From Azospirillum brasilense (GTDB lineage Bacteria; Pseudomonadota; Alphaproteobacteria; Azospirillales; Azospirillaceae): a stretch of 64,000 bases of DNA. The stretch is taken from NCBI RefSeq assembly GCF_005222205.1, contig NZ_CP032345.1, forward strand, positions 251,001 through 315,000, written 5' to 3'. A program made the position numbers and the translations under genes. Shown piece by piece: positions 42,494-47,384 of the stretch (position 1 is the first letter of the stretch; each line of letters begins with the position of its first letter). The notes beneath the pieces were generated by a model that was not told the origin of the DNA, searched no databases, and saw only the letters and a list, made by a program, of their open reading frames with translations.

Positions 42494-43240
42494 TCAAGCC
42501 CAAGGCTGAGCGGGGGCCTTGAACCCAGTCAGGCGGCGTTCCTTCAGCGGCACAACCAGCAGCTTCCCCAGCAGGGTCATCATCCCGGCGTGCCATTGCG
42601 CGTAGACGTCGTTCACCTCCCGGATCTCCAGCAGGCTCGGCTCCTCGACGAGGGCGCACCAACGGGCGAATACCTGCCGCTGCCCGGCGTCGTTGTGCCG
42701 GAACAGATACCCCCGCTCGGCGGCATCGATCACGCTGCGACCGCGCCTGTCGACGAGGGGTCTTCCGGTTCCCAGCATGCGGCGGGCGATCTCAGAGCGC
42801 TCCGGCAGGTTCTCCCACTCGCCCTCGATCCGGTGACGATGGCGCCCTGCCTGGCTGTCGTCCACCGGCACAGCGACAAGCCGCTGCTGCCAAGGCAGCC
42901 AGTCCGGCCGGAACCCGGCGCGGGCGTAGTGCAGGATCAGCGAACGGCGGCGGCGGTCGCCGATGGTGTTCACCCCGACCATCACCGCCTCGGCGTCCGG
43001 GTGGATGCGCGGCGCCACGCCCCGAACGGCGGAACCGCCGTCCACCCGGCACCCGAGCGCCCCTCGGCGCATGAGACTCGACACGCCGTCGGTCGACCAA
43101 GCGGCGGGCTCCAGCCCTTCCGCAGCGGCTTCCACGTCGTGCAGGCTGACATCGTCGCAATCGGCGCGCTGGGCCTTCACTGCCCAAACCACCAGCGCTT
43201 CGAGATCGACGCGTTGACGGACGTCCTGCACGGCGCTCAT
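42494..43240 (-). CDS. Hypothetical phage protein coupled to the replication initiator
   Basis: 248 residues from the ATG at 43240, overlapping the initiator stop as ATGA. It has an N-terminal helix (VQDVRQRVDLEALVVWAVKA), an Arg-rich middle (NTIGDRRRRSLILHYARAG, FRPDWLPWQQRL) and a C-terminal helix pair (YAQWHAGMMTLLGKLLVVPL). Position directly after the initiator and before the terminator is where lambda-like phages carry helicase loader or late-control genes. I recognise neither motif, so no function is claimed. Confidence 0.7.
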   Translation of the reverse strand: MSAVQDVRQRVDLEALVVWAVKAQRADCDDVSLHDVEAAAEGLEPAAWSTDGVSSLMRRGALGCRVDGGSAVRGVAPRIHPDAEAVMVGVNTIGDRRRRSLILHYARAGFRPDWLPWQQRLVAVPVDDSQAGRHRHRIEGEWENLPERSEIARRMLGTGRPLVDRRGRSVIDAAERGYLFRHNDAGQRQVFARWCALVEEPSLLEIREVNDVYAQWHAGMMTLLGKLLVVPLKERRLTGFKAPAQPWA

Positions 43241-44544
43241 CGCACCCCCCCAGCCTGCGCCGGCTTGGCAACCACGCTGACCTCGACCGATCGGGCGCCC
43301 CAGGCGGTGCGCAGCTTGTCGGTCAGGTTGGCGACGATCCAGTCGTGGACGTAGCGCGTCGGGGCCTCGACGGTCACCACGCCGTCGCACTCGGCGACCT
43401 GACACGGCGCAATCCAGCTCGAGAACTCCAGCGCCGTCAGGTGCCCAGCGTACGGGGCCGGCGGTTCCGGCAAACGGCTCCCTCCACCCGACGCACCGCG
43501 GCCCGGCCGGGTGTTGGCGATGGCCGACCGGACGTCAGCGTCGAGGATGGCGCGCAGGCTGCGGGGCGGTCCGCCGTCGCGATCGGCCAAGCGCTTGAAC
43601 TGGCGCTGCACCTCCGCAGCCGCGGCGTCCGCTGCCTCGACGGGCTTGAGCCCACGGGCGGTGCCGGCGTCGATCCAGTCCGCCAGCAGTTCCTCGTCCG
43701 CCGGCGTCAACGGCCGGTCGGGCAGGTCGAACCAGCGCTCGAACGCCTCGGTCACGGATCGGCGGATGGCGCTGACCGCCTGGGAGATCCCTGGATCATC
43801 GCCATCGGCGGGCGGGCTGGGCTCGTCTCGCGTGCGCGCACGAAGCCCGCCAGCCGAGGATTCTCCGATTCCAGAATCTCTTTCCTCCTCCTTGTTCCCT
43901 CCTCCCTCCTCCCTCTGCGCGGCCATTTCCGAACTTTTCGGAACTCGGGTGCGTTGAGACGGCTTCGGTTCCGAACTCACGGTGCGTTGAGAGGTGCCGA
44001 GTTCGGAACTTGACGACGTTGAAGCGTGGTGCGGTTCGGAACCAGCACCCTTTGTCGTGGGTGTCGGTTCGGAACGGCGACGGTTTGAACGGCTTGTGGG
44101 TTCCGAACCGTAGGCGGCTTCAGTGCCATCCGGTTCGGTACCGTCGTCATGCTGATCGGCGTCGGGTTCCGAACCCGCCTTCTTCTTCGACCCCCACATG
44201 TCCATGCGGACCCAGTCGTGCAGATCGGCCGGCAGCGGGTGGACCTTGGTCGGCTTCTTCGGGCGCTGGAACCGCACGAAGTTGCGGATGGCACCGTAGA
44301 CCTTGCCGTGGGCGGTGAACTTGGTGATCTGCCGATGCGTCTCCAGGTCGGCCAACAGGGCTTCCATGTCGACGTTGTCCACCGGCATCAGCTTCATCTT
44401 TAGGCCGACGGGCTTCCACTCGAAGACGCCCTGGTCGTCAGCCTCGTTGCGCAGGCCGATGATGAGCAGGCGGGCGAGCGGCTGGCAGCCGACGAAATCC
44501 TCATCGGTCCACTGGCCGGGAAACGTTGAACGAATGCGGGCCAT
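43237..44544 (-). CDS. Phage replication initiator with DnaA-like C-terminal domain
   Basis: 435 residues from the ATG at 44544. Residues 1-105 (MARIRSTFPGQWTDEDF, LARLLIIGLRNEADDQGVFE, TKFTAHGKVYGAIRNFVRFQ) are the N-terminal winged-helix pattern of phage replication proteins. About 125-215 is a hydrophilic linker built from an 11-residue repeat with S-E-P at its head. The C-terminus (HLTALEFSSWIAPCQVAECD, VEAPTRYVHDWIVANLTDKL) resembles DnaA domain I / phage helicase-interaction domains. The linker DNA is the iteron array at 43936-44174, so initiator and origin overlap as in lambda O. Confidence 0.82.
   Translation of the reverse strand: MARIRSTFPGQWTDEDFVGCQPLARLLIIGLRNEADDQGVFEWKPVGLKMKLMPVDNVDMEALLADLETHRQITKFTAHGKVYGAIRNFVRFQRPKKPTKVHPLPADLHDWVRMDMWGSKKKAGSEPDADQHDDGTEPDGTEAAYGSEPTSRSNRRRSEPTPTTKGAGSEPHHASTSSSSELGTSQRTVSSEPKPSQRTRVPKSSEMAAQREEGGGNKEEERDSGIGESSAGGLRARTRDEPSPPADGDDPGISQAVSAIRRSVTEAFERWFDLPDRPLTPADEELLADWIDAGTARGLKPVEAADAAAAEVQRQFKRLADRDGGPPRSLRAILDADVRSAIANTRPGRGASGGGSRLPEPPAPYAGHLTALEFSSWIAPCQVAECDGVVTVEAPTRYVHDWIVANLTDKLRTAWGARSVEVSVVAKPAQAGGVR
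43936..44174 (-). other. Intragenic iteron array, candidate phage replication origin
   Basis: A 9-bp palindrome GTTC-S-GAAC recurs with centres at 43972, 44005, 44038, 44071, 44104, 44137 and 44170, exactly 33 bp apart. The copy at 44137 has one mismatch (GTTCGGTAC). A weaker copy lies at 43940. Between cores the sequence varies. A purine/pyrimidine-skewed stretch (about 43880-43918) flanks the array. The layout equals the iterons of lambda ori inside gene O. Confidence 0.82.
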
Positions 44545-44546
44545 GG

Positions 44547-45048
44547 TCAGCACCCCTCGAGCGCGGAAAGACGAAGGTCCCGAAGGCTAGCCCGCATCAG
44601 GGCCGCATCATCGGGCAGCGGGTGGAACCCACGCCGCGCGAAGGCGGCCGGATGGGCGGTGCGGACCAGCACGAAGTGGTCGGGCGCGGCGCCGTGGCGG
44701 ATCTGCGTGAGCGCCGCATCGAGGAGGCGTCCGCCCACGCCGTGCCCCTGGTGACGGGGTGACGTGCCCCAATAGGCGATCTCCCAGCCCAGCGCCGAGA
44801 TGAAGGCGGAGCGGTAGGCCACCACGCCGACGATGTCGCCGTCGACCACCGCCACCAGCACGTTGGAGCCGTGCGGGCAGATGGCGGCCGTCGCGTCGTA
44901 AAGCATCCTGCGCAGGTGCGACTCACCGTAGCGCGGGGGCACCGTGCCGTCCGGCCGGCGGTGGCAGGACTGGAGGAGGTCGATCACCTCGGGCACGTCG
45001 TCGCGGGCCATGGCGCGGATGGAGATGTTGCGGGTTCGCGCGGTCACA
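44547..45048 (-). CDS. GNAT-family N-acetyltransferase
   Basis: 166 residues from a GTG at 45048, overlapping the previous stop as GTGA with GGAGGT in front. The frame to 45281 has no start support. Motif A is clear: EIAYWGTSPRHQGHGVGGRL with the Q-G-x-G-x-G acetyl-CoA pyrophosphate loop. LVRTAHPAAFARRGFHPL is the usual C-terminal motif B. The substrate is unknown. An acetyltransferase in a phage replication block could modify host proteins or simply be cargo. Confidence 0.85.
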
Positions 45049-45238
45049 GCCCACCTCCCACCAGCCGGCGCCGGGCCGAGGTGATCAGGTCCACCGCGAG
45101 CGCCAGGGCGTCGAGAGGCTCCAGCTCGACGCCCTGCAGCTTGCCGTCGGCGCCGATCAATGCGAGCACCAGCGGCTTTCCGGGAACGTCGAAGATCACC
45201 GGGCGCGCAGCTGCATCGGTTTGGGTTATGCGGGACAT
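45044..45238 (-). CDS. Small hypothetical phage protein
   Basis: 64 residues from the ATG at 45238, overlapping the preceding stop (TGATG). The sequence has a strand-rich centre (PVIFDVPGKPLVLALIGADG) and a helix (LDALALAVDLITSARRR). It is part of a tightly coupled chain from 48123 to 44547. No family is recognised. Confidence 0.65.
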   Translation of the reverse strand: MSRITQTDAAARPVIFDVPGKPLVLALIGADGKLQGVELEPLDALALAVDLITSARRRLVGGGL

Positions 45239-46017
45239 CACGCGCCCCTCCGTTTGTTGGATTTCTTCGGCTCCGGATCACGGAACCCGTTTTCGATCAG
45301 CACGCCGCGCAACTGCTCGATGGCGTCGCGCAAGGTTTCCGAGGCGGACAGCACGGTGGAGAGGCCGCCCCAGGACTTCATGAGGCCGGACTTGTGGACC
45401 GCGGCGACGGCGGCCAGCAGCTCGGTGTCGCGGAAGTAGCGCGCCTCGTCTGCACCCAGCAGGCCGGACAGCTTGTCTCGGAACTCCTTCAGGTGCTGGT
45501 ACTGCCTGGTCTGGCAGTCCACCTCATGCTCCACCAGCGGCCTGAGGCGCTTCTTGACCTCAGCTTCGATCTGCGCATCGTCGGTCTTGTGGGCGTTGCG
45601 CAGCATGGCGGCGACGAACAGCCGGTCGAGCGGCTTGGCCTCGGTGAGCTGCGCCTGCTTCTTGGTGTGGATCACGCCGTCGGCGCCGAGCACTTTCCAG
45701 CCCCAGGCGGCGGGCAGTTCCTCGGCATCGGTGATGACGCTGTTCTCGGGCGTGACGACGTACCAATAGTCGCAATAGGCGGCGATGCTCTCGGCCTTGG
45801 TCGGATCAGCCAGTTCCCGGCGCCAGTCGCCCCGGTAGACCTTGATCTCGAAGCCGGTGACGTGCATGCCGTGGCTGGGCCAGAGAGACATGGCCACGGC
45901 GTCGGCATAGCGCCGGCTGTTGGCACCGGTCGAGCTGGCGACCTCGAACAGGATGGCGTAGGCCGGTGCCGCGTAGGCGCTGCGCAGGGCGGCCTTGATG
46001 TCGGCGGCCGTGGTCAT
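45238..46017 (-). CDS. PD-(D/E)XK-like nuclease (MmcB-like)
   Basis: 259 residues. RRYADAVAMSLWPSHG, then GFEIKVYRGDWRREL and DYWYVVTPEN, with LPAAWGWKVL, give the D ... E-x-K core of a small restriction-like endonuclease fold related to alphaproteobacterial MmcB-type proteins. The C-terminal 120 residues are helical. It may act in phage recombination or repair with the neighbouring helicase and RusA. Confidence 0.75.
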   Translation of the reverse strand: MTTAADIKAALRSAYAAPAYAILFEVASSTGANSRRYADAVAMSLWPSHGMHVTGFEIKVYRGDWRRELADPTKAESIAAYCDYWYVVTPENSVITDAEELPAAWGWKVLGADGVIHTKKQAQLTEAKPLDRLFVAAMLRNAHKTDDAQIEAEVKKRLRPLVEHEVDCQTRQYQHLKEFRDKLSGLLGADEARYFRDTELLAAVAAVHKSGLMKSWGGLSTVLSASETLRDAIEQLRGVLIENGFRDPEPKKSNKRRGA

Positions 46018-47384
46018 GCCCGCCTCCGCTCGTTCTGCCGGTCACGCATGCGCTCGGTCGCGTGCCGGACCCAGCCGGGATTGAAGCCCTTCACGCGGGC
46101 GATTCTGTTCAGGTCGATCACGCTGACCGCGATGCGCTCCAGATCGGCCGTGGGCATGGCCCGGATCGCGCTGTCGGCCATGGTAGTGAGCATGGGAACA
46201 GCCGGCCGGTCCCAATAGCGGAACTCGTGGCGGCAGCTCGGGCAGAACGGGCCGGGGGCGAAGCGGCGGTGGCACTTCGGGCACCGGATCGTGCGGTGGA
46301 CCTGCGGGACCAGCCCGCTTTCCAGCGTCCACACCCGGTCGGCCTCGGGCAGGCCGTGGAGTTCGACGTTGCCGGCGATGTCGATGATGCAGGCGCGGGT
46401 TTTGCCGTGGCAGATGCGAAGCACGCGCCCGACCTGCTGCATGTACTTCAGGACGCTCTTGGTCGGGCGGAGGAGGATCGCGCCGGCGACAACCGGAACG
46501 TCGGTCCCCTCGCTGACGATCTCGCAGGAGGTCAGGACCTGATAGCGGCCCGAAGCCAAGCCCTGGATCGCCGCATCGCGGGCGTCGGGGTCCATGTTGC
46601 CGTCCACCGAGACGGCCTGCCAGCCAGCGGCGCTGAACTGCGTGGCGACATAGCGGGCATGGTCGACCGAGACGCAGAAGGCTATGGCCGGCTCTCCCGG
46701 CATCCGGGCGGCATACTGGTTGACCGCGAGCCGAGTTACGGTGTCGTTGTTCATCACCCGTTCGAGGTCGGAGGCGGCGTAGTCGCCCCGGCTGATGGTC
46801 ACGGACGTCAGGTCCGGGGTCCAAGGCGCCCAGATTTCCGCCGGACACAGCCATTTCGGGGTGAGTTCGGCCACGGTCGGGCCGCGCACCACCTCATCGA
46901 ACAGGGCGCCCAGCGGCTTTCCATCGCCGCGGAACGGAGTGGCGGAGACGCCGACGCGCTGCGCGTTGATCAGCATCTCCAGCAGGGCTTGCCAGCCGGG
47001 CGCCACCGTGTGGTGGGCCTCGTCGATGACGACGAGTCGGATCGTGCGCAGCCAGCCGGCCAGCCGCTTCTTGCGGGCCTTCAGCGTGTCGATGGAGCAG
47101 ACGTGGACGAGCGCGAGGGGGTCCGGATCATGGTCGGGATCGACCACCGAAGCCTTGATGCCGACGCGGGCCAGGGTGCGGACCGACTGGTGCAGCAGCT
47201 CGCGGCGGTGGACGAGGAAAATCACGGGCCAGCCAAGGTTGACCACCTCGCGGATGACGCCGCGCACCACGACCGCCGTTTTGCCACCGGCCGTGGGGAG
47301 CACGTAGAGGGTGCCGCGGACGTCACGTGCCAAGCACGCCAGGATCTCGTCCGCGTTCTTTTGCTGATAGGGGCGGAGCTTCAT
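46014..47384 (-). CDS. DEAH-box superfamily 2 helicase
   Basis: 456 residues from the ATG at 47384, with GGAGGGG upstream. Motifs in order: Walker A LPTAGGKTAVV (29-39), VHRRELL (Ib), DEAH at 121-124, SATPFRGDG (III), a VSEGTDVPVV-type motif V and QQVGRVLR (VI). A zinc-ribbon follows (CPKCHRRFAPGPFCPSC, about 366-382). The family resembles phage and type III restriction-type SF2 enzymes. Probably a DNA translocase or replication/recombination helicase. Overlaps both neighbours by four bases. Confidence 0.92.
   Translation of the reverse strand: MKLRPYQQKNADEILACLARDVRGTLYVLPTAGGKTAVVVRGVIREVVNLGWPVIFLVHRRELLHQSVRTLARVGIKASVVDPDHDPDPLALVHVCSIDTLKARKKRLAGWLRTIRLVVIDEAHHTVAPGWQALLEMLINAQRVGVSATPFRGDGKPLGALFDEVVRGPTVAELTPKWLCPAEIWAPWTPDLTSVTISRGDYAASDLERVMNNDTVTRLAVNQYAARMPGEPAIAFCVSVDHARYVATQFSAAGWQAVSVDGNMDPDARDAAIQGLASGRYQVLTSCEIVSEGTDVPVVAGAILLRPTKSVLKYMQQVGRVLRICHGKTRACIIDIAGNVELHGLPEADRVWTLESGLVPQVHRTIRCPKCHRRFAPGPFCPSCRHEFRYWDRPAVPMLTTMADSAIRAMPTADLERIAVSVIDLNRIARVKGFNPGWVRHATERMRDRQNERRRA

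Follow-up and report, generated by a model that had tools for sequence, protein, structure and literature searches.

A candidate lambda-O-like replication origin in the linker codons of a prophage initiator gene of Azospirillum brasilense

Introduction

Replication origins located inside the gene of their own initiator are established, as described for lambda O and for RepA_N plasmids such as pSK41 (PMC5043065, PMC7466680, PMC5703833). In lambda, near-palindromic initiator sites within gene O are followed by an opening region, with four iterons reported for lambda and six for Stx phages (PMC7466680, PMC5043065); the lambda iterons are described as 19-bp inverted repeats that occur with a 40-bp A+T-rich region (PMC5043065). 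For the pSK41 RepA_N initiator, a winged-helix N-terminal domain of ~120 aa is reported to bind four Rep boxes located centrally in the rep gene, while the origin-encoded linker is dispensable as protein and the C-terminal domain makes contact with a replication protein of the host (PMC5703833). Helical phasing is also already known for plasmid iterons (PMC5043065).

Here we analyze an initiator gene that belongs to a prophage in Azospirillum brasilense, located in a 64-kb stretch of contig NZ_CP032345.1 (hereafter the window, to which all coordinates refer). As in lambda ori, repeated palindromic sites lie inside the initiator coding sequence. The initial annotation of this DNA had considered the repeat and its spacing distinct from lambda ori, and this holds: the cores are 9 bp long and spaced by 33 bp (on an 11-bp grid in homologues), as compared to a 19-bp iteron. 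In addition, the second element consists of tandem heptamers and the initiator tail is DnaA domain I, not the P-binding part; lambda O binds P. The layout is also similar to that of pSK41, with an N-terminal domain (here predicted to be winged-helix-like), a linker that would encode the origin, and a C-terminal host contact (here proposed). However, RepA_N proteins belong to Gram-positive plasmids, their partner is DnaG as opposed to the DnaB proposed here, and their Rep boxes occur with A+T-rich tracts; the RepA_N domain (PF06970) had no Pfam match in the initiator at E up to 1. The PHROG 1408/16167 proteins (e.g., Mx8 p19) share the same N-terminal domain and are annotated as functioning in replication initiation, although the linker of Mx8 p19 is different. 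The replisome organizer of lactococcal phage r1t binds short 6-bp direct repeats within its own gene; its host and these direct repeats set it apart. We found no origin described for PHROG 1408/16167 initiators in the open-access literature (titles and abstract openings, with few subscription journals covered). Judged against this literature, the geometry across the initiator family, the heptamer element, and the frame-free conservation appear to be new.

Results

Residues 4–195 of the initiator match the PHROG 1408 replication initiation protein (profile search, E 1.3e-25). The AlphaFold2 model of the N-terminal domain is confident (Table 1), and its predicted helices and strands are ordered as in a winged helix. 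This domain had no Pfam match in the window protein (E up to 1) or in any of the 82 members scanned. Structure comparison matched it to phage replication proteins, Mx8 p19 among them. Searching the PDB with Foldseek returned weak matches to winged-helix regulators and to 4pt7 (“Structure of initiator”, TMq 0.52, E 0.08), a RepA_N protein, and no match at E 0.001 or below. A sequence search of solved structures with this domain gave nothing meaningful (best E 0.27).

The C-terminal part had been called DnaA-like, which stands for domain I; the AAA+ domain III and the DNA-binding domain IV of DnaA had no Pfam match in the initiator, where only DnaA_N was matched at E up to 1. By alignment, the initiator retains Glu at the position equivalent to E21 and has Tyr at the equivalent of F46, two DnaA residues reported to contact DnaB (PMC5448010). 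The first helix of domain I is missing from the alignment. Among the 82 members, Pfam identified DnaA_N in 6 (the window protein and homologues L001, L004, L009, L011, and L022, with the window, L001, and L011 above the Pfam cut-off), HNH in 4, and DnaT in 1; the close relative L003 had no DnaA_N match. The HNH endonuclease domain is located at approximately residues 134–200 of L052, L073, L083, and L085 (4/82 scanned), between the N-terminal domain and the repeats, as if the origin linker tolerated or attracted such inserts.

The linker-coding part of the gene contains a total of six exact and three one-mismatch GTTCnGAAC palindromes of 4-1-4 form (Table 1). Seven palindromes at 33-bp steps had been noted initially, and we recovered all of them (six exact and one with a single mismatch, with centers from 43972 to 44170). 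The weaker copy noted at 43940 is also real, and a second weak copy (site 9) had gone unnoticed. Sites 8 and 9 are in different frames (gene positions 600, frame 0, and 610, frame 1). As first described, the array is located in the linker between the N-terminal domain, for which we obtained a confident winged-helix-like model, and the C-terminal DnaA-like part. All six exact copies of GTTCSGAAC in the window fall in the array (0.58 expected; 0/100 shuffles reach 6), and the 7.2-Mb genome has 45 exact copies, including these six. The cores are conserved and the 24-bp spacers vary, but the spacers are not wholly free: CAACG (reverse CGTTG) is common to three of them (43948–44020), with similar words in L001 and L009. 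This word reflects either a duplication history or a further weak motif.

Table 1. Features of the initiator gene and its repeat array (window coordinates).
Feature	Position	Strand	Basis
Replication initiator gene	43237-44544	minus	ORF of 435 aa from ATG; PHROG 1408 and PF11638 matches
N-terminal 117 aa, predicted winged-helix-like DNA-binding domain	44194-44544	minus	AlphaFold2 mean pLDDT 95.6
Site 1, GTTCCGAAC	44166-44174		exact GTTCSGAAC
Site 2, GTTCGGTAC	44133-44141		one mismatch
Site 3	44100-44108		exact
Site 4	44067-44075		exact
Site 5	44034-44042		exact
Site 6	44001-44009		exact
Site 7	43968-43976		exact
Site 8	43936-43944		one mismatch; other frame (V-P-K); 32 bp from site 7
Site 9	43926-43934		one mismatch; 10 bp from site 8
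Tandem 7-bp purine-rich repeats, proposed unwinding element	43884-43915	minus	TRF period 7, 4.6 copies
Start of identity to L002	43874		gene nt 671; 10 bp beyond the heptamers
DnaA N-terminal domain (domain I, PF11638), proposed host DnaB recruiter	43297-43440	minus	Pfam E 2e-9

For comparison, we assembled 99 alpha genes from genomes and viral contigs, or 96 after dropping the near-duplicates L021, L047, and L072; the truncated gene L109 was left out of the reference list, and sets A2 and A3 comprise 81 and 82 rows, including the window, out of the 96 genes. The 99 homologues contain 77 exact GTTCnGAAC sites, as compared to 7.0 expected from shuffles, distributed over the three frames as 40, 23, and 14. 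At least one exact site was found in 34/99 homologues and none in the other 65. From nt 330 on, the 96 nonredundant homologues have 57 exact sites in 28 genes (frames 36, 12, and 9); by frame, these are 22, 3, and 1 in the window’s clade and 14, 9, and 8 in the other homologues. Neighboring near-exact sites are spaced by exactly 11, 22, or 33 bp in 50/73 cases, as compared to about 1.5, 1.1, and 1.8 such spacings in shuffled sets (about 4 per set), so the underlying unit is one helical turn. Around the 31 exact sites outside the window’s clade, the bases at +11 and +22 resemble the site, whereas the clade’s 26 sites show a clear resemblance at +33 only. In the compact form (e.g., L096 and L050), four sites, one per turn, are followed by a stretch ending in CAG and then by 7-bp repeats. 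Considering these spacings, the 33-bp array of the window is the version that uses every third turn. As 33 is the smallest multiple of 11 that holds all sites in one frame, the array looks like a protein repeat. Of what had been proposed at the outset, the helical phasing is borne out but 33 bp as the basic unit is not, since the grid of the homologues is 11 bp; likewise, the expected core and period recur in homologous linkers as this grid, while the exact core is missing from 65/99.

The same periods were found without reference to any motif. Recurrence of 5-mers in alpha linkers was raised at lag 11 (348 vs 64), lag 22 (299 vs 57), and lag 33 (345 vs 143), as well as at lag 7 (493 vs 74) and lag 14 (241 vs 57); gene by gene, 54/84 alpha genes showed an excess at lags 11 and 22 combined. 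The beta/gamma set (91 genes, of which 24 were dropped by linker identity to give 67 nonredundant genes, including HK639, JBD44, and Bordetella IFTN8) showed the same periods in its linkers, with 360 vs 47 at lag 7 and 307 vs 59 at lag 11. Outside the linker, the regions of these genes that code for the N- and C-terminal parts show either period weakly or not at all. For the N-domain part, the counts at lags 7 and 11 were 14 vs 23 and 27 vs 15 (alpha) and 20 vs 22 and 33 vs 12 (beta/gamma), and for the C-terminal part, 34 vs 24 and 28 vs 23 (alpha) and 19 vs 14 and 11 vs 13 (beta/gamma). The N-domain coding part (nt 1–290) has a smaller lag-11 excess of its own in both sets. As the genes share ancestry, these enrichment figures overstate independence.

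With a strict palindrome rule, at least three grid sites were found in 21/79 alpha and 6/67 beta/gamma genes (2.8% and 1.5% of shuffles), and at least three grid palindromes together with a clear heptamer in 17/79 and 4/67 (0.8% and 0% of shuffles). The homologues that fail this combined rule are degenerate or different. Complementary 4-base arms, counted without a motif, were enriched not just at gap 1 but across gaps 1 to 9 and at further gaps (z 3 to 7); support for the 4-1-4 form therefore comes from the named alleles and how they are spaced. We dropped the idea of a single family-wide motif, as the strict rule finds few genes, the arm gaps are unspecific, and some phages have other short periods.

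Protein and codon usage by themselves do not account for the palindromes. When the codons of the gene were shuffled synonymously 20,000 times, preserving both the protein and the codon pool, there were on average 0.31 exact sites and 2.1 sites with at most one mismatch, and no shuffle reached the observed 6 or 9, respectively. GAA encodes each of the 7 Glu residues in the S/T-E-P/L heads, though 18/32 Glu codons gene-wide are GAG (p=0.001). Across eight genes of the window’s clade, GAA:GAG is 31:1 inside S-E-x vs 62:159 elsewhere (p=2e-14), and the codon before the Ser of S-E-x ends in T in 29/32 instances. Because the sites of homologues are spread over every frame, the same DNA comes to be translated as S-E-P, V-P-N, or Q-F-G. 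Furthermore, L061 and L092/L102 share a stretch of DNA beside the palindrome that is read in different frames. Together, these comparisons show a DNA pattern that is itself, beyond the encoded protein, preserved among related phages. The initial annotation had suggested selection on DNA sites, for which the synonymous shuffles, the codon bias, and the homologue sites in all three frames all speak, and had named retention of the S-E-P peptide with loss of the palindrome as the contrary outcome. The reverse was found, with homologues retaining the palindrome and varying the peptide.

The initial annotation had described the palindromes correctly but had missed the 7-bp tandem repeats that adjoin them, a tract that spans at most 43875–43916 when degenerate units are counted. 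Directly following the palindromes, purine-rich heptamers (GGAGGAT/GGAGGNA type) account for the 7-bp period. Duplex stability in the gene reaches its 60-bp minimum at 43857–43916, a segment that starts at the heptamers; in the 64 kb as a whole, just 2.3% of 60-bp windows are less stable. Averaged over 61 alpha genes, stability has its minimum at the heptamers (−1.36 vs about −1.50), while over 45 beta/gamma genes the heptamer minimum is only marginal (−1.34 vs −1.36 to −1.43 upstream). The heptamer region of the window is purine-rich, not A+T-rich as in lambda.

Other palindromes occupy the same grid in other phages. Among alpha genes, L038 has GTACnGTAC, and L005, L006, L007, and L028 have GTCGnCGAC; where an alpha gene has no clear sites, however, the best-arm search often yields arms that arise by chance. 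For the beta/gamma genes, GCACnGTGC was the best arm in 23/67, and heptamers of the CTGATTC type, encoding “LIPDS”, recur in these genes (among the heptamers listed for 40/67). In 5/12 phage regions (Mx8, SOVA965, VvAW1, Pitbull, and Kp4865-4), we observed other short periods of 5, 6, 10, or 12, counted without a shuffle control. The more distant phage initiators L136, L139, L141, L143, and L144 have linker repeats with these periods and not 7, which suggests that the second element is varied.

One homologue appears to be a chimera. From gene nt 671 to the end, L002, the Azospirillum tabaci initiator, shares 92.6% DNA identity with the window gene; upstream of that point, neither its N-terminal part nor its linker matches the window gene at the DNA level, and GTTCnGAAC is absent there even when one mismatch is allowed. 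This pattern indicates that the N-terminal part and the repeat DNA were exchanged together, separately from the recruiting tail. At nt ~360–560, L002 has its own repeats of 12, 24, and 36 bp (CGTAACG-like) and a 5-bp GGGAC tandem (without a shuffle control), perhaps a separate type of origin built to the same plan.

We also examined neighboring genes. There is no DnaB_C match inside the window, and the genome’s best match is located elsewhere on the contig. The window does contain a DEAD/ResIII-type helicase gene (46014–47384). The next gene downstream of the initiator (42494–43240) matches only an unknown family, and there is no adjacent lambda P-type loader gene; a GNAT acetyltransferase gene (44547–45281) lies directly upstream. 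A helicase, primase, or loader gene follows the initiator in 7/12 phage regions (one of them unannotated), namely Mx8, HK639, JBD44, SOVA965, IFTN8 (with one gene between), Pitbull, and Pae_U8; in HK639, a P-like loader adjoins the initiator gene. For the homologues, 20 ORFs, picked partly for length, were searched as next genes, 10 against Pfam and 10 against PHROGs. A primase or DnaB-type gene comes next in 11/16 selected homologues outside the window’s clade and in 0/4 within it (L003, L004, L009, and L011); in L009, a ResIII-type helicase follows.

Discussion

We consider it likely, with a probability of roughly 0.83, that 43857–44174 is this prophage’s lambda-O-like replication origin, written into the part of its own initiator gene that encodes the linker. 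This reading draws on the observed conservation of the sites at the DNA level, their frame-independence and phasing, the tandem repeats and low stability beside them, and the block exchange of the N-terminal part with the array. In the mechanism we infer, the N-terminal domain would bind and coat the phased GTTCnGAAC palindromes, which would be presented on nearly one face of the helix because successive sites are close to an integral number of turns apart (33 bp along the array, with final steps of 32 and 10 bp). Once assembled, the complex would strain and open the neighboring purine-rich heptamers, where the gene’s weakest duplex begins, and the C-terminal DnaA domain I tails would gather host DnaB helicase at the opened heptamers. 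Host DnaB is proposed because we found no gene for a DnaB-type helicase in the window. Several results count against this reading: 65/99 homologues have no exact site, few genes pass the strict palindrome rule, complementary arms are enriched beyond gap 1, the N-domain part has a lag-11 excess of its own, the heptamers differ from the A+T-rich region of lambda and give only a marginal stability minimum in beta/gamma genes, the window has a DEAD/ResIII-type helicase gene, and the first helix of domain I is missing from the alignment. One feature is also awkward for a classical winged-helix dimer: within a palindrome, just 5 bp separate the half-sites, which would bring two subunits in from opposite faces.

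The array might instead be a feature of the protein only, a disordered S-E-P linker that grew by in-frame 33-bp duplications and whose palindromes are an accident of codons. Such a history fits with 33 being divisible by 3, with the CAACG common to three spacers (consistent with past duplication), and with the SEP heads that also occur in L001, L009, and L022. We regard it as extremely improbable, as synonymous shuffles reach neither site count, GAA is favored so strongly inside SEx (31:1 vs 62:159 elsewhere), homologue sites occupy all three frames, and one stretch of DNA is read in two frames in L061 and L092. In addition, periods of 7 and 11 are not divisible by three and are thus not created by in-frame peptide repeats or duplications. 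On this frame, codon, and shuffle evidence, a protein-only repeat was rejected.

An origin also has to be distinguished from other DNA-level functions. The palindromes are operator-like, and the parS loci described for mycobacteriophage RedRock are also repeat arrays (PMC7157519), so the initiator or another phage protein could use the array as an operator or partition-type site that regulates transcription or segregation. We consider this unlikely given that the array is inside an initiator gene and beside a low-stability repeat, that helicase, primase, or loader genes are often next in homologues (11/16 selected), and that the array was exchanged as a block with the N-terminal part in L002. 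Still more improbable, in our assessment, is that the sites are host LexA boxes, at which LexA could occlude the origin until DNA damage. The Caulobacter SOS box is given as GTTCn7GTTC (PMC9578287, Table 1 of that paper), which a GTTC palindrome on an 11-bp grid spells automatically, and GTTCn7GTTC or GAACn7GAAC is found in nt 300–900 of 28/96 homologues. However, the window array has no such box (the two matches in the window lie elsewhere, with 1.5 expected by chance), and the GTAC, GTCG, or GCAC alleles retain the grid without spelling it. LexA boxes were therefore rejected as a by-product of the GTTC allele in 28/96 genes that is absent from the window array. A LexA-type box is present in homologues such as L050, L055, L061, L096, and L102, and SOS coupling of the origin is possible in homologues that carry it.

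Returning to the origin reading, a broader generalization is slightly favored on our evidence: this large, Pfam-less family of proteobacterial phage initiators may carry a portable cassette of a DNA-binding domain and an origin in linker codons. In such a cassette, 9-bp 4-1-4 palindromes, one per turn, would come first, and short tandem repeats, which are heptamers in the two branches studied, would come after them and be recognized during opening, perhaps as single strands. The site, the repeat, and the helicase-recruiting tail would vary while the geometry stays constant, and the window would be the every-third-turn version that holds its sites in one frame.

If true, sequence alone would predict where replication starts in many uncharacterized temperate proteobacterial phages. 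A helix-locked grid found in every frame would offer a test of how origin geometry constrains protein evolution, and the changing palindrome alleles would amount to a natural code that links the N-terminal domain with its site. Finally, the fusion to DnaA domain I suggests one way to do without a phage helicase or loader.
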